Shown here piece by piece: positions 9,270 to 55,416 of a stretch of 64,000 nucleotides of DNA. The stretch comes from Siphonodentalium dalli (Eukaryota; Mollusca; Scaphopoda; Gadilida; Siphonodentaliidae). Within the stretch, counting starts at the first letter, position 1. Each line of letters opens with the position of its first letter. The position numbers were made by a program, and so were the translations under genes. The notes below the pieces were generated by a model. The model saw only the letters and a list, made by a program, of their open reading frames with translations. It was not told the DNA's origin and made no database searches. The stretch covers positions 196,502,052-196,566,051 of the forward strand of contig CP136067.1 of the NCBI GenBank assembly GCA_032622095.1, in the 5' to 3' direction.

Positions 9270-9655
9270 AAAAGTGCTGTCGGAAGGGGTGGGGGTGTAA
9301 CTGTGCTGTCGGAAGTGGTGGGGGTGTAAGTGTGCTGTCGGAAGGGGTGGGAGTGTAAGTGTGCTGTCGGAAGGGGTGGGGGTGTAAGTGTGCTGTCGGA
9401 AGGGGTGGGTGTGTAAGTGTGCTGTCGGAAGGGGTGGGAGTGTAAGTGTGCTGTTGGAAGAGGTGGGAGTGTAAGTGTGCTGTCGGAAGGGGTGGGAGTG
9501 TAAGTTTGCTGTCGGAAGGGGTGGGAGTGTAAGTGTGCTGTTGGAAGGGGTGGGAGTGTAAGTGTGCTGTCGGAAGGGCTGGGAGTGTAAGTGTGCTGTC
9601 GGAAGGGGTGGGAGTGTAAGTGTGCTGTCGGAAGGGGTGGGGTGTAAGTGCTCTT
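9270..9655 (+). repeat. 29-bp minisatellite, about 13 copies
   Basis: The unit GTGCTGTCGGAAGGGG plus TGGGAGTGTAAGT repeats every 29 bp with variants at GGGG/GGAG and CGG/TGG. Confidence 0.5.
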
Positions 9656-19354: not shown

Positions 19355-20805
19355 GAACTTGAACCATTATCATACCATACCATGGTAAATGGACTGCAGA
19401 CTTCCACTGAACTTGAACCATTATCATACCATACCATGGTAAATGGACTGCAGACTTCCACTGAACTTGAACCATTATCATACCATACCATGGTAAATGG
19501 ACTGCAGACTTCCACTGAACTTGAACCATTATCATACCATACCATGGTAAATGGACTGCAGACTTCCACTGAACTTGAACCATTATCATACCATACCATG
19601 GTAAATGGACTGCAGACTTCCACTGAACTTGAACCATTATCATACCATACCATGGTAAATGGACTGCAGACTTCCACTGAACTTGAACCATTATCATACC
19701 ATACCATGGTAAATGGACTGCAGACTTCCACTGAACTTGAACCATTATCATACCATACCATGGTAAATGGACTGCAGACTTCCACTGAACTTGAACCATT
19801 ATCATACCATACCATGGTAAATGGACTGCAGACTTCCACTGAACTTGAACCATTATCATACCATACCATGGTAAATGGACTGCAGACTTCCACTGAACTT
19901 GAACCATTATCATACCATACCATGGTAAATGGACTGCAGACTTCCACTGAACTTGAACCATTATCATACCATACCATGGTAAATGGACTGCAGACTTCCA
20001 CTGAACTTGAACCATTATCATACCATACCATGGTAAATGGACTGCAGACTTCCACTGAACTTGAACCATTATCATACCATACCATGGTAAATGGACTGCA
20101 GACTTCCACTGAACTTGAACCATTATCATACCATACCATGGTAAATGGACTGCAGACTTCCACTGAACTTGAACCATTATCATACCATACCATGGTAAAT
20201 GGACTGCAGACTTCCACTGAACTTGAACCATTATCATACCATACCATGGTAAATGGACTGCAGACTTCCACTGAACTTGAACCATTATCATACCATACCA
20301 TGGTAAATGGACTGCAGACTTCCACTGAACTTGAACCATTATCATACCATACCATGGTAAATGGACTGCAGACTTCCACTGAACTTGAACCATTATCATA
20401 CCATACCATGGTAAATGGACTGCAGACTTCCACTGAACTTGAACCATTATCATACCATACCATGGTAAATGGACTGCAGACTTCCACTGAACTTGAACCA
20501 TTATCATACCATACCATGGTAAATGGACTGCAGACTTCCACTGAACTTGAACCATTATCATACCATACCATTATCATACCATACCATTATCATACCATAC
20601 CATTATCATACCATACCATTATCATACCATACCATTATCATACCATACCATTATCATACCATACCATTATCATACCATACCATTATCATACCATACCATT
20701 ATCATACCATACCATTATCATACCATACCATTATCATACCATACCATTATCATACCATACCATTATCATACCATACCATGGTAAATGGACTGCAGACTTC
20801 CACTA
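19355..20805. repeat. 54-bp satellite (22 units) with nested 16-bp array
   Basis: Twenty-two apparently identical 54-bp units (each with CCATGG and CTGCAG) from 19355 to 20542. Then comes an array of about 14 units of ATTATCATACCATACC, itself a piece of the 54-bp unit, and a final partial 54-bp unit. All frames divisible by three stay open on both strands, which explains 511-, 429- and 406-codon frames; these are not genes. Confidence 0.5.
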
Positions 20806-26827: not shown

Positions 26828-27024
26828 TAGTAGTGCCCTAAATAATCGACTCCTTAACCACAGCAGAATTATGGGTAATTTTTCAGGATTTAGTCAGAAA
26901 TATGGCTTGTTGCCATTCATCGATGAATGGCACCAGGCACCAAGCCATATTTCCGACTAAATCCTGAAAAGTTACCCATAATTCTGCTGTGGTTAAGGAG
27001 TCGATTATTTAGGGCACTATACTG
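26828..27024. mobile_element. TA-flanked MITE (CAGTAATGC family), copy 4
   Basis: TAGTAGTGCCC ... GGGCACTATACTG, flanked by TA, full length with a shortened loop. Confidence 0.5.
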
Positions 27025-27043
27025 TATATCATGGGCTGATGTA

Positions 27044-27234
27044 CAGTAATGCTCTAATTAATCGACCTCTTAACCACAGCAGAATTATGGGTAACTTTTC
27101 AGGATTTAGTCGGAAATAATTGGCTTGTTGCCATTCATCGGAAAGCTGGCAACAAGCCATATTTCCGACTAAATCCTGAAAAGTTACCCATAATTCTGCT
27201 GTGGTTAAGAGGTCGATTAATTAGAGCATTACTG
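27044..27234. mobile_element. TA-flanked MITE (CAGTAATGC family), copy 5
   Basis: CAGTAATGCTCTAATTAATC ... AGAGCATTACTG, flanked by TA, only 19 bp after the previous copy. It belongs to a subtype (AATTAATCGACCTC) shared with the copy at 61949. Confidence 0.5.
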
Positions 27235-27429
27235 TACTAAAGATAGTCGCAGATGGTTGCATGGGCTGAGATCCCCCCCCCCAATGTTTTTAGGGTCCCG
27301 TCCCCCAGCCCCTAGCAGAAACCCTTGTTGCCAAACCCTGGTTGATAGAGTTACCTCCCCAGACCTGTCTGTACTTATTGGGTGTTGTCCAAAATGGTGA
27401 CGCCTTGCAAATGTGGATGAACGTATATC

Positions 27430-29062: not shown

Positions 29063-29169
29063 AACAAAATGGCTCATGTCAGAATGGTCGTTTTGCCGTA
29101 AGGCACCCGGTGTAAAGCAATGTGGTGTCGGTGTCCAGCACAGGAAAGCTATATGTGTCGAACTCAATG
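29063..29169 (+). CDS. THSD7A: THSD7-like exon E2: B-type thrombospondin repeat
   Basis: Acceptor TTGTTTTCAG ends at 29062, donor GTAGGT starts at 29170; 107 nt, phase 2 to 1. The peptide TKWLMSEWSFC ... KQCGVGVQHRKAICVE is a B-type TSR with the CGxG turn and the R-x-AxC strand. Joining to E1 restores a Gln codon across the intron. The 3' half of this exon together with its donor is repeated twice downstream (29200-29260 and 30071-30135), described separately. Confidence 0.5.
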
Positions 29170-29199
29170 GTAGGTACCTCATTTACATACGATATATAA

Positions 29200-29260
29200 A
29201 GCAATGCGGTATAGGTGTCCAGCACAGGAAAGCTATATGTGTCAAAGTGGATGGTAGGTA
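29200..29260 (+). pseudogene. Partial duplicate of exon E2 3' half plus donor, copy 1
   Basis: The sequence matches E2 from the codons for QCGVGVQ through the donor (GGTAGGTAC), with substitutions: GVG becomes GIG and VELNG becomes VKVDG. There is no acceptor of its own (preceded by ATATATAA), so it is an exon fragment, not a usable alternative exon on its own. The frame remains open and conserved. Confidence 0.5.
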
Positions 29261-29299
29261 CATCACATTTACATGTACATCTATTATATATTTTGGAAG

Positions 29300-30065
29300 A
29301 TCTGTGTGTGTGTGTGTGTGATTGCGATGGACTCGAAAACGGCCTAGCCGATTTCGATGAAACTTGGTATGTGGTGGTATTTTCGGCCGGGGACTGGCAT
29401 AGGCATATTAATTTTCAGATCCGAGGTCAACTTTTCACGTGCCGAGGTCAAATCTGTTTTTACGCTGTGTTACGGGACTTTCATTTGAGTTCGGTGCTTA
29501 CAAATCGATTCGAAACAGCGCGAATAATAAAATGCCAGTCATAATAATGACACTGTGAGAATCTTTCGTGTTTCCTCTTTCCAACGATATATAATGCGTG
29601 TGTATCCGTTTTAGTTATCTGCCTCAATTATCAAGAAGAAGTGGTACTATCTTCCATCAGGATAAAAACAATGCGTAACTTCTATGACGTCGTTAGAGGT
29701 CATAACTTTAGATCACGTTAACGCTTAACCGGCCGATGCATTTGACTGTTTCAGACGTCTTGGCGATATCTCGGGCACCCATGGTAATTTATCTTTACGT
29801 TGAAACTTGATAATTAATGAGCGTGTGTATATGAGGCGCGTTTATATACTTGAGTGGAAATCAAATCGGGTTAAACTGGCGGATTTTTACGGACGAAATT
29901 TGATGCATAGGGTATCTCGGTATCCGTTGGGCCGATTTCCCGGTATCCGCTGGGCCGATTTCCACCATTTTTGGGGTGTTGGTGTTTGACCCCACCTGAC
30001 CTTGACCTTCAAAATGGTCAATTCAAGGTCAAAGCCCGGACGAAGTCGGGTCACCTTCTAGTATG
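29300..30065 (+). repeat. Long dispersed repeat (GACTCGAAAACGGC type)
   Basis: Starts in a (TG)n run and GACTCGAAAACGGC, continues with GATGAAACTTGGTATG, and ends GACGAAGTCGGGTCACC. It resembles long non-coding dispersed repeats I know from marine invertebrates. No credible protein is encoded; the 109-codon frame here is fortuitous. It lies between the two E2 fragments. Confidence 0.5.
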
Positions 30066-30070
30066 ATATA

Positions 30071-30135
30071 TAAGCAATACGATATAGGTACCCGCACAGG
30101 AAAGCTATATGTGTCGAACTGGATGGTAGGTACCT
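30071..30135 (+). pseudogene. Partial duplicate of exon E2 3' half plus donor, copy 2
   Basis: A second fragment of the same E2 tail, more degraded at its 5' part (CAATACGATATAGGTACCCGCAC replaces the CGVG region) but retaining AGGAAAGCTATATGTGTC and the GGATGGTAGGTACCTCAC donor area. It is separated from copy 1 by a dispersed repeat of about 760 bp. Confidence 0.5.
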
Positions 30136-30682
30136 CACCTTTACTGTATGTACAGTCTTCGCATTTAGCTATGGCAAATGCCAAAGCGATTTGCTGAAGT
30201 AAATGGCGCCGACAGTGGTTTGCATAATTTTTTGGTAATTAATTGATTCTGATAACTAAAGCGTCTTTTGAAGAAATGTTGTTGTTGGAATCTGATGATA
30301 CGGGGACCATAAAATCGGATTGTGTACCTTTAAGGAGCAGAAAGCCAATGCCGTTTGGGAAGTCAAAAATAAGTGACAATCAATGTTTATGATCTGCCCT
30401 TTGTCAATCTGACAGTCCCTGATAATCGTCAATGTCGGCTTCTTTGAAGGTGCCCCGCGCGTTGCAAGAAAGTAACACTCAATAAACAGAATTTTAGTTA
30501 CAGAGTAGCAATTGCAGCAAGCCTGGCTACACTGTGTAGCAAACAAGTACGCACATGTGAATAGATCACAATGTGTCAAAGAGAGATATCGGTTAGGGTT
30601 CTGTGACTGTGTCGTAGACTTGACAAATAGACACAATGACTGGGGCATGTGAGCAGTACAACAAAAGAGTTTGATGGAAGTA

Positions 30683-35762: not shown

Positions 35763-35968
35763 GCCAGCGATACCGGACGAGAGAGATTCTCACGTTTCCT
35801 GGGAACGGAGGAACAATGTGTCCCCATCTTAGTGAGATGCAGGCGTGTGAGCCCAAGCCCTGCTATAATTGGAACATTACTAACAGTAACTGTATGATAT
35901 ACAACGAGAAGCATTCATGTGGATCAGGCTTACTCTATAAAACTATAGCCTGCGTTGATAGATATAAT
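35763..35968 (+). CDS. THSD7A: THSD7-like exon E4: end of A repeat and B-type repeat
   Basis: Acceptor TCTTTATAG ends at 35762, first donor GTGAGT at 35969; 206 nt, phase 1 to 0. The peptide GQRYRTREILTFPGNGG then MCPHLSEM is the A-type second half. CYNWNITNSNC ... SCGSGLLYKTIACVDRYN is a B-type repeat in which the usual second Trp is Asn-rich, giving possible N-glycosylation (NIT). The terminal 12 bases plus donor are the seed of a 34-bp minisatellite with 23 copies of the donor (35957-36734), so the exact donor used cannot be fixed from sequence. The first is chosen because E5 begins in phase 0, which it satisfies. Confidence 0.5.
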
Positions 35969-36734
35969 GTGAGTACAAGACTAAGGGTGTGATAGATATA
36001 ATGTGAGTACAGTACTAAGGGTGTGATATATATAATGTGAGTACAGTACTATGGGCGCTATAGATATAATGTGAGTACAGTACTACATGCGCGATAGATA
36101 TAATGTGAGTACAGTACTATGGGCGCGATAGATATAATGTGAGTACAGTACTAAAGGTTTGATATATATAATGTGAGTTCAGTACTACAGGCACAATAGA
36201 TATAATGTGTGTACAGTACAAAGGGTGTGATAGATATAATGTGAGTACAGTACTAAGGGAATGATAGATATAATGTGAGTACAGTACTAAGGACATGATA
36301 GATATAATGTGAGTACAGTACTAAGGACATGATAGATATAATGTGAGTACAGTACAAAGGGTGTGATAGATATAATGTGAGTACAGTACTAAGGGCATGA
36401 TAGATATAATGTGAGTACAGTACTAAGGACATGATAGATATAATGTGAGTACAGTACAAAGGGTGTGATAGATATAATGTGAGTACAGTACTAAGGGCAT
36501 GATAGATATAATGTGAGTACAGTACTAAGGACATGATAGATATAATGTGAGTACAGTACTAAGGGCATGATAGATATAATGTGAGTACAGTACTAAGGAC
36601 ATGATAGATATAATGTGAGTACAGTACAAAGGGTGTGATAGATATAATGTGAGTACAGTACTAAGGGCATGATAGATATAATGTGAGTACAGTACTAAGG
36701 ACATGATAGATATAATGTGAGTACAGTACTAAGG
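35957..36734 (+). repeat. 34-bp minisatellite built on the exon E4 5' splice site, about 23 units
   Basis: Period 34 bp: the junction GATAGATATAAT|GTGAGTAC of exon E4 recurs at 35969, 36003, 36037 and on to 36717, separated by AGTACTAAGGGTGT-type spacers. Units vary mainly in the spacer (GGGTGT, GGACAT, GGGCGC, GGGCAT), while GTGAGTAC is kept in nearly all. A higher-order pattern of three units (GGACAT, AAAGGGTGT, GGGCAT) appears from about 36250. Confidence 0.5.
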
Positions 36735-36803
36735 ACCCACCCTCCGATTTGACACCGCATTATCTTAAAACTTTCCTAAGGTTATTTGCCAGGTAAACAT
36801 ATA

Positions 36804-37131
36804 ATAATGTCCTAAATAATCGACCCCTAAACCACAGCAGAATTATGGAAAAAAATTCAGGATTTAGTCCGAAATATGGCTTGTTGCCATTCATCGGAAA
36901 GGTATCGGGGAGCAATCAGAGGGTTGACATTAGCTCACTTAATCAATGCTAATATACAGAATATACACGTAAAATTCCATGACAATCAGCCTCAGGATTC
37001 TTGAGATACAGTATAATATGTCAGGTGAGAGCTTTCCGATGAATGGGAACAAGCCATATTTCCGACTAAATCCTGAAAAATTTCCCATAATTCTGCTGTT
37101 GTTAAAGGGTCATATACTTCAGGCATTACTG
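36804..37131. mobile_element. TA-flanked MITE (CAGTAATGC family) with 115-bp insert, copy 8
   Basis: The left arm ATAATGTCCTAAATAATC to ATCGGAAAGG and right arm GAGAGCTTTCCGATGAATGG to GGCATTACTG are separated by foreign sequence at about 36905-37022 with no similarity to other features here. Confidence 0.5.
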
Positions 37132-37789
37132 TATAATAATGGATAAAATAAAAATACTTGTAAGCATACTTGTTATGGCGAAAAGCCACAAAATCATCCA
37201 TAAAGTAATACGTTAAAAATGATCAGAAAAGCTCATAATTGAGAAGCTCTTTATTATCTACCGCTTGTAGGCAATGGAAGCATGTAGCTGTTTTTTTGGG
37301 AAAATGCATTTTTAATCATATTTGGGGAAAAAGTATAAATAGATAAGGGCTGTGAAAGGAAATAAGTATAAAGAAGAGTGTTCAAGATGCCAGAAGGAGA
37401 TAGATGGGAGTTCTGGAGTTCAGTTCACCATTTTGAACACTGTAAACTGACACAGAGTGATGTGTTTATGGTAGGTTTTAATATAGTAAAATAGTCCTTT
37501 GAAACTCTTCACCAGTCCTTAAAAAGTTATTAGAAAGTGCTTAAATTTGATTCCTAGGAAAGAGTATCAACCCTGTAATTAATCATTCCTGTTTCTAATG
37601 ACATTACCACATTTTGACAGAATGAAATTTGCATTCGTTATATATTAAGAACAGGAGATAGTAAAAGTGGAATAACTTAGGCAATCATAAGCCATATGTA
37701 TTGTAGAGTAAAACAATTTTTAATATTTTTCCAAAGTTATCTCCGAGCTACTCCATCTTTTACATGATCATTGTTTAACCTTTTATTTG

Positions 37790-38015: not shown

Positions 38016-38211
38016 TTACGGGTAACTGATAATTTGTGTGCTGAAGACAGCCCCAAACCAGATGAAGAAGCCACATGTTATGTGCCATGTCCAAATGACT
38101 GCGTGATATCCAAATGGTCGAAATGGACAAGCTGTCCTGAAGTCTGCCAGTTGGAACTAACAACGTCCATACGCCAGAGACATCGGCAGATACTAGCCTT
38201 TCCTGGTCCAG
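38016..38211 (+). CDS. THSD7A: THSD7-like exon E5: A-type repeat
   Basis: Acceptor TTTCTTTATAG ends at 38015, donor GTTGGT at 38212; 196 nt, phase 0 to 1. The peptide LRVTDNLCAEDSPKPDEE ends the previous repeat. CYVPCPNDCVISKWSKW is a textbook A-type start with WxxW, and SIRQRHRQILAFPGP gives the basic strand. The donor deviates from consensus (GTTGGT) but is the only GT that keeps frame with E6. A long dispersed repeat follows within the intron. Confidence 0.5.
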
Positions 38212-53654: not shown

Positions 53655-55235
53655 TATTATGTACTTGTTCGGGTATGTGAAACTGATAAGTTAGCAGTCA
53701 GGCGCTCTGTCAACTGGAGGAATGTAGCATTTTAGTAATATTGCCGAAAATTTCAAGCAAATCGACCGTATCACTCCATAGAAATCAATGTCGGAACTAC
53801 GCTCAATTGTAAATATTTACTTCTCGATTCGGGAGGCAACTATCTTCGATAGATTAACGAAAACGTTTTCATCTTCGAGAATCACCACAATTAATTAATA
53901 TAATATATAAGAATGACGATGTTTGTTGCCAATTTGGATATAATATTTGTAAAAATATCTACTTTGAGCTAGATCATTCTCCTTTTCTATTTGATCACCA
54001 TACCGGAGTGTTTCACATCACTTTAAGATCATTCTCCTTTTCTATTTGATCACCCGACCGGAGTGTTTCACATCACTTTAAGATTATTCTCCTTTTCTAT
54101 TTGATCACCCTACCGGAGTGTTTCACATTACTTTAAGATAATTCTCCTTTTCTATTTGATCACCCGATCGGAGTGTTTCACATCACTTTAAGATCATTCT
54201 CCTTTTCTATTTGATCACCCGACCGGAGTGTTTCACATCACTTTAAGATCATTCTCCTTTTCTATTTGATCACCCTACCGGAGTGTTTCACATTACTTTA
54301 AGATTATTCTCCTTTTCTATTTGATCACCCTACCAGAGTGTTTCACATCACTTTAAGATCATTCTCCTTTTCTATTTGAGCACCGTACCGGAGTGTTTCA
54401 CATCACTTTAAGATCATTCTCCTTTTCTATTTGATCACCCTACCGGAGTGTTTCACATCACTTTAAGATCATTCTCCTTTTCTATTTGATCACCCGATCG
54501 GAGTGTTTCACATTACTTTAAGATCATTCTCCTTTTCTATTTGATCACCCTACTGGAGTGTTTCACATTACTTTAAGATAATTCTCCTTTTCTATTTGAT
54601 CACCCTACCGGAGTGTTTCACATTACTTTAAGATCATTCTCCTTTTCTATTTGATCACCCTACCGGAGTGTTTCACATCACTTTAAGATCATTCTCCTTT
54701 TCTATTTGATCACTCGATCGGAGTGTTTCACATCACTTTAAGATCATTCTCCTTTTCTATTTGATCAGCCTACCGGAGTGTTTCACATCACTTTAAGATC
54801 ATTCTCCTTTTCTATTTGATCACCCTACCGGAGTGTTTCACATCACTTTAAGATCATTCTCCTTTTCTATTTGATCACTCGATCGGAGTGTTTCACATCA
54901 CTTTAAGATCATTCTCCTTTTCTATTTGATCAGCCTACCGGAGTGTTTCACATCACTTTAAGATCATTCTCCTTTTCTATTTGATCAGCCTACCGGAGTG
55001 TTTCACATCACTTTAAGATCATTCTCCTTTTCTATTTGATCACCCTACCGGAGTATTTCACATCACTTTAAGATCATTCTCCTTTTCTATTTGATCACCC
55101 TACCGGAGTGTTTCACATCACTTTAAGATCATTCTCCTTTTCTATTTGATCACCCGATCGGAGTGTTTCACATCACTTTAAGATCATTCTCCTTTTCTAT
55201 TTGACACCCGACCGGAGTGTTTCACATCACTTTAA
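53655..55235 (-). mobile_element. Dispersed element (AAAGTRATGTGAAACACTC family), reverse, with expanded 55-bp array
   Basis: 53655-53980 is the reverse of the body at 40640-40935 and 16330-16635. From about 53985 its terminal subunit is amplified as a 55-bp repeat (AGATCATTCTCCTTTTCTAT plus TTGATCACCCTACCGGAG and TGTTTCACATCACTTTA), about 22-23 copies with small variants (CTACCGG, CGATCGG, CGACCGG). The array ends 21 bp before exon E12. Confidence 0.5.
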
Positions 55236-55256: not shown

Positions 55257-55416
55257 ATGCACTATATCTCAGGGAAAGAATATAATTCCAAACACCATTG
55301 TTGCCGATGAATATTGTAAATCTGAGCCCCGCCCAGCAGCGAGACAGGCGTGTTTTATGCCGTGTGCAGGACATTGTGTTGTTAGTCTATGGTCTGAATG
55401 GAGTAAATGTTTGCAG
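55257..55416 (+). CDS. THSD7A: THSD7-like exon E12: B end and start of A repeat
   Basis: Acceptor TTTCTGCTGCAG ends at 55256, donor GTGAGT at 55417; 160 nt, phase 2 to 0. It continues the B repeat (QCTISQGKNIIPN ... YCKSEPRP), then CFMPCAGHCVVSLWSEW and SKCLQ opens an A repeat. A 55-bp minisatellite ends about 20 bp before the exon, so this acceptor sits at the edge of a 1.25-kb tandem array. Confidence 0.5.

Follow-up and report, generated by a model that had tools for sequence, protein, structure and literature searches.

A minisatellite repeats the 5' splice site of exon 4 in a THSD7-like gene of the scaphopod Siphonodentalium dalli

How is a 5' splice site chosen among identical competitors? 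The question is usually addressed with minigenes, and exon 4 (E4) of a THSD7-like gene in Siphonodentalium dalli poses it as a natural series of 23 near-identical donors. At stake is whether minisatellites at exon boundaries simply ride along without harm or give rise to heritable changes in expression and to new introns. The gene was studied in a stretch of 64,000 nucleotides (the window; assembly GCA_032622095.1, contig CP136067.1, positions 196,502,052 to 196,566,051 of the forward strand), from whose first letter positions are counted; exons, donors, the stop codon and the arrays beside E4 and E12 all lie on the + strand.

TRF finds a single array at 35956-36734, with a period of 34, 22.9 copies, 90% matches and no indels. 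Set in register with the exon, it comprises 23 head-to-tail units at 35957-36734 (778 bp) on the intron side of E4; unit 1 begins at 35957 and straddles the 3' end of the exon, whose last base is 35968. The original prediction, that 20 bases recur every 34 bp to give about 23 donors, nearly all intact, in units of exon tail, donor and about 14 bp of intron, is borne out. Each unit holds 12 nt of exon tail, GTGAGTAC and 14 nt of intron; GT is present in 23/23 units and GTGAGT in 22/23 (unit 8 reads GTGTGT), while GTGAGTAC is intact in 21/23 (unit 7 reads GTGAGTTC) and the whole 20-mer in 19/23. These 19 exact copies are the only occurrences of the 20-mer in the 2.23-Gb genome, and the 22 GTGAGT words of the array compare with a mean of 1.1 and a maximum of 5 in 300 dinucleotide shuffles. 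The predicted native 5' splice site is donor 1 of the series (35969-35976), and copies 2-23 occupy 36003-36724, with GT at 36003 and then in 34-bp steps to 36717.

E4 (35763-35968, 206 nt) carries a TSP1 module, ends in CVDRYN and is entered in phase 1 and left in phase 0, and E5 (38016-38211) opens with the phase-0 acceptor TATAG/TTACGGG, so the boundary predicted for E4 at the first donor agrees in phase with the exon that follows. The joint reads CVDRYN/LRVTDNLC, and the Cys-to-Cys distance across it is 14 residues, equal to that in E6 (CYNNKGQLVAERRC). Because reading phase and cysteine spacing of E4-E5 both fit an exon end at 35968, donor 1 is, as judged from the sequence, the coding donor. 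The joined E3-E6 peptide matched TSP1_spondin (4.4e-22) and TSP1_ADAMTS (3.1e-8) in Pfam, and its sole relative in the PDB at E <= 0.001 was THSD7A (8oxr_A, E 6.5e-6); the 8oxr stretch that aligns over the E4-E5 joint, with one gap, is weak alone (i-E 2.8). TSP1 modules together with THSD7A-like sequence identify the gene as THSD7-like, and it appears to run beyond the window at both ends. A genome search found no close paralogs of E4; the next best match (E 0.07), some 2.5 kb ahead of the window start, probably belongs to the same gene. TSP1 domains are densely clustered at C3:161.60-161.82 Mb and C2:167.0-167.2 Mb.

What would the later donors yield? Continued past donor 1, the reading frame runs GTG AGT ACA AGA CTA AGG GTG TGA, and since this TGA (35990-35992) precedes donor 2, any transcript from donors 2-23 would include it (22/22) and have the identical truncated end VSTRLRV. 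The unit length modulo 3 is therefore irrelevant, and the earlier expectation that 34-nt steps would cycle the frame with mixed outcomes had to be abandoned. Predicted U1 pairing is -6.9 kcal/mol in 21/23 donors (unit 7, -5.5; unit 8, -2.4), and 20/22 later donors equal donor 1 in predicted strength; the gene's other native donors that were scored (12, of E2, E3 and E5-E14) range from -4.5 to -13.8. Intron 4 outside the array holds three GT sites that out-pair the native donor, the best at 37025 (-11.1), so U1 pairing alone cannot choose the donor. Where 5' splice sites compete, the intron-proximal site is often favoured. Later donors of equal predicted strength should compete with donor 1, and as that preference would here be ruinous, something must favour donor 1.

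We think it likely that the array is a mirage-type minisatellite, a passive and probably neutral chance duplication of the E4 splice junction. The exon-intron junction would first have been duplicated in tandem, and slippage or unequal exchange would then have lengthened and homogenised the array within intron 4. Donor 1 alone would yield the full-length protein, with the other 22 as passive decoys. Exon definition from the E4 side would most likely favour donor 1, and rare use of donors 2-23 would lead to the common early stop after CVDRYNVSTRLRV, in transcripts most likely removed by nonsense-mediated decay, which would clear the leakage. The array would then most likely be neutral or carry a slight cost, as one among the many that arose in a minisatellite-rich genome. 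Its far part (units 9-23) looks more recently homogenised, since mean identity is 32.1/34 among these units and 28.8/34 among units 1-8, as is expected of local turnover.

Arrays of this class have already been described, in the mirages of amphioxus and in human IFI6. Amphioxus mirages are presented as minisatellite-like duplications in Adh3 and globin genes that cover intron-exon boundaries (PMC3087553), and the genes named are Adh3, the globins BflGb6/BflGb9, troponin C and PGBD5 (PMC3087553, PMC3902484). Their splicing is suggested by RT-PCR to be undisturbed, with length instability seen (PMC3087553), and regular splicing is likewise reported not to be disturbed (PMC3902484). As far as these accounts go, the E4 array resembles them in being a tandem duplication over an exon-intron boundary with many units that carry a splice signal: its units span that boundary (12 nt of E4, donor and intron), they copy the signal (GT 23/23, GTGAGT 22/23), and several genes of the scaphopod genome bear such arrays (7 clear and 1 marginal of the 16 searched, and a small donor duplication at E2). 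Units of the Adh3 mirages are given as 10-72 bp, a range that includes the 34 bp of E4, whereas globin mirages are given as few copies of 150-160 bp units, against 34 bp x 23 at E4. Normal splicing, for which RT-PCR is cited, and length instability are features reported of amphioxus, whereas the E4 array is known from one assembly. No lancelet genome is known to reach 2.2 Gb, the size of the genome that carries the E4 array.

Human IFI6 (6-16/G1P3), with a minisatellite attributed to Turri et al. 1995 (via PMC4526556, PMC2572611, PMC3618361), resembles E4 as described there in that an exon-end minisatellite offers several splice donors. Two downstream repeat units reportedly serve as donors in IFI6 and give three mRNAs and isoforms (PMC4526556), whereas the 22 later donors of E4 all read the TGA at 35990-35992, which leaves no translatable isoform of this kind. 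In human segmental duplications, minisatellite repeats at boundaries are reported to alter splice patterns and make new introns (PMC2812944). These share with the E4 array their place at an exon-intron boundary, but new introns and exon-retained repeats are described for them, whereas the E4 array contributes nothing usable to the coding sequence. An intron minisatellite of 27 bp in an abalone TSSK1-like gene is described as varying in length but has no bearing on boundary arrays. The parts available of papers on earthworm metallothionein introns, sea bream myostatin-2, SRSF1/U1, 5' splice sites (a review) and Drosophila intron gain held nothing relevant, and within the literature searched, with subscription journals mostly outside it and sources seen in part, many such arrays in one non-lancelet genome are unreported.

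Donor-bearing arrays recur in the scaphopod genome. Searching the genome for AGGTRAGT three times at spacings of 4-34 bases, with the backward pattern as control, gave 2835 matches against 1608 (matches, not arrays), and all of the forward matches listed were on C1; taken singly, AGGTRAGT occurs less often than its backward counterpart (4 against 19 in the window plus 70 kb, 268,000 strand-bases). Three copies of CAGGTAAGTT gave 484 matches against 94 (again matches, not arrays, the backward 94 being one array), and among the matches listed were at least six arrays in five families. Three copies of CAGGTGAGTT gave 265 matches against 7, likewise counted as matches and not as arrays. The 32 loci retrieved (20 + 12) fall into 25 array families once merged by eye (L005/L020, L014-L018, L023/L024, L026/L027); an array at C5:1087915 and some copies of a 26-bp satellite near C1:232 Mb lie outside the retrieved loci. 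That satellite is long, spans at least 70 kb at C1:231.98-232.05 Mb (L014-L018) and has GTAAGT in many units. L023 and L024 (C3:299.40 and 299.87 Mb) hold one and the same donor array, 0.47 Mb apart and oppositely oriented, an inverted duplication.

Frames upstream of the first donor, a subset per locus picked by eye, were searched against Pfam in 16 of the 25 families, with PDB sequences searched as well for five of the 16; the nine families outside the search are L005/L020, L006, L007, L013, L014-L018, L019, L025, L030 and L031. Seven of the 16 clearly end a recognisable exon and one does so marginally. The Pfam matches are USP47 (L009; USP47_C, 6.2e-12), an MFS transporter (L029; MFS_1, 4.3e-13), NIDO (L026; 5.4e-8, with the same exon in L027) and MBOAT (L032; 2.6e-6). 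The PDB matches are PPP1R12A (L021; 1e-5), insulin-degrading enzyme (L028; 9e-6, with the Pfam M16 middle domain at 7.9e-7 just below cut-off) and the F-type lectin FBP32 (L001; 1.6e-7, with Pfam alone 0.12). L008, which we take to be SLC41 partly from an SLC41 motif (MgtE 0.0088, below the Pfam cut-off), is graded marginal because an L004 peptide scored better (0.0014) with an implausible family. L004 (0.0014, 0.0055, 0.12) was set aside, as were L022 (0.046) and L023 (0.097), all of them below the Pfam cut-off. No PDB sequence match was found for L010 and L022, and the remaining eight of the 16 families searched showed no convincing homology. L026 (C2:45 kb) and L027 (C2:14.17 Mb) are near-identical NIDO copies, each with a 33-bp boundary array of 7.1 units that differ among themselves.

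Protein matches of the clear families end 0-5 residues from the first donor. Since the exon tails match known proteins, the exon predates the array in these genes and was the source of its units; by analogy, E4 would predate its array as well. In the nine loci of these eight families, counting SLC41 and each NIDO copy, 57/58 later donors read a stop and the other one shifts the frame. These stops are in part expected, because GTRAGT reads as a stop when it follows an exon in phase 2, the case in 3/9 loci; the other six are in phase 0 or 1. E4 and the arrays on unrelated genes each have one coding answer, the first donor, and an easy read-out in the early stop, and they would set exon definition against intron-proximal choice.

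The recurrence may invite the view that 5' splice sites are hot spots of minisatellite birth beyond chance, which we regard as unlikely. AGGTRAGT triplets do exceed their backward reading even though the word itself is the rarer of the two, and at least six CAGGTAAGTT arrays of five families stand against one backward array. However, an array that swallows a donor must hold the donor word, and such enrichment would follow from random seeding too. Arrays of at least 3 copies, period 10-100 and score of at least 100, overlaps merged, numbered 15 in 134 kb, seven in seven 10-kb pieces (at 50 Mb of C1-C7) and eight in the window, or about one per 9 kb. If the genome holds about 200,000 donors, as is assumed here, arrays seeded at random at this density with units near 35 bp would swallow several hundred of them, and a splice-linked birth mechanism is therefore not required. 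On the acceptor side, three copies of the 10-mer TTTTTGCAGG gave 3 matches, equal to one array on C9, with a control of 0, which as a single 10-mer is not a fair comparison. This 45-bp array (L040, C9:196142693-196142882), with TTTTTGCAGG in its units, is a possible acceptor-side array; the longest frame in its translated downstream flank is 37 aa.

It has also been proposed, in the original prediction, that the array could tune E4 splicing or saturate U1 binding. In the fuller form of this idea, a controlled fraction of transcripts would run into the common stop and decay, and copy number would tune the protein level; the single stop for all later donors (22/22) and the equal predicted U1 pairing of 21/23 donors (-6.9 kcal/mol) are what such a rheostat would use. 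Constraint specific to the donors is absent. The variable columns of the unit number 2/12 in the exon tail, 2/8 in the donor octamer, 2/5 in columns 21-25 and 8/9 in columns 26-34. The octamer does not differ from the remaining conserved core (2/8 against 4/17, Fisher P = 1), and this comparison gives no hint that the additional donors are under selection; tuning and U1 saturation are without support, since the octamer columns are not less variable than the core, and selection on donors 2-23 was set aside on the same ground. Taken together, columns 1-25, which form the core, are less variable than the tail of the unit (6/25 against 8/9, P = 0.001), possibly through homogenisation or mutation bias. 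Moreover, arrays of this kind on unrelated genes suit chance birth better, and lancelet mirages are reported to be spliced normally in the available accounts (PMC3087553, PMC3902484). We therefore think it rather improbable that the E4 array acts as a rheostat. Were the reading as a dial true, array length would set the output of each gene, heritably and with fast mutation; that such arrays form a class across the genome, carried by dozens to hundreds of genes and working in this way through unproductive splicing under a strict first-donor rule, is just as improbable in our estimate.

Another way to favour donor 1 would be RNA structure, if complementary stretches of different units paired and hid donors 2-23, with the first donor left more open by the changes in unit 1 (AAGACT for AGTACT). 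Folding predictions give donor 1 an openness of 0.047 against a median of 0.007 and rank it 2/23 at all three window settings, and with unit 1 set to consensus in silico it falls to rank 17, or to 6 and 8 at the two other settings; every predicted openness value is low, however. Across nine other loci the first donor is most open in three (L001, L009 and, with two donors scored, L032), second in two (L021, L028) and at or near the bottom in four (L008, L026, L027, L029). With no consistent pattern in these loci, masking is rejected as a general rule and would be locus-specific at most. We hold it to be very unlikely as the explanation, though on these predictions a structural aid to donor 1 at the E4 locus is possible.

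That the array came first, as an inserted repeat or mobile element that provided the final codons of E4 together with its donor, is the least credible reading: a genome search with the array gave, among the matches listed, only weak ones elsewhere (64-66%; C1, C6), no residues seem gained as the E4-E5 cysteine spacing equals that of E6, and the exon tails of the sister cases match known proteins.

The passive, mirage-type duplication proposed for E4 has a small counterpart at exon E2 (29063-29169), whose tail and donor (GT at 29170) recur further downstream; TRF reports the tandem as an 84 bp x 1.9 repeat at 29113-29274. Copies of the E2 tail and donor span 29113-30140, as the 84-bp tandem and a third copy about 0.9 kb further. 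Donor 2 of E2 (GT at 29254) lies 84 nt on in an open frame, and its use would lengthen the protein by 28 residues; donor 3 (GT at 30126, the third copy ending at 30125) lies 956 nt on, out of frame and behind stops. A 55-bp x 23 intronic array (53971-55235) ends 21 nt ahead of E12, which starts at 55257; it was rejected as a second mirage as it stops short of the CTGCAG acceptor, and it could affect the branch point or pyrimidine tract of E12.

Other repeats of the window include a 29-bp x 13 array at 9274-9650 with GTAAGT in its unit and no exon noticed alongside, and a 54-bp x 22.5 array at 19355-20571 with 100% matches, which reflects either very recent expansion or an assembly effect. Intron 4 of the THSD7-like gene also contains an inverted repeat at 36799-37134, with 108-nt arms that are 81% complementary, which may be a fold-back mobile element; similar sequence occurs within the repeat at 26829-27236.
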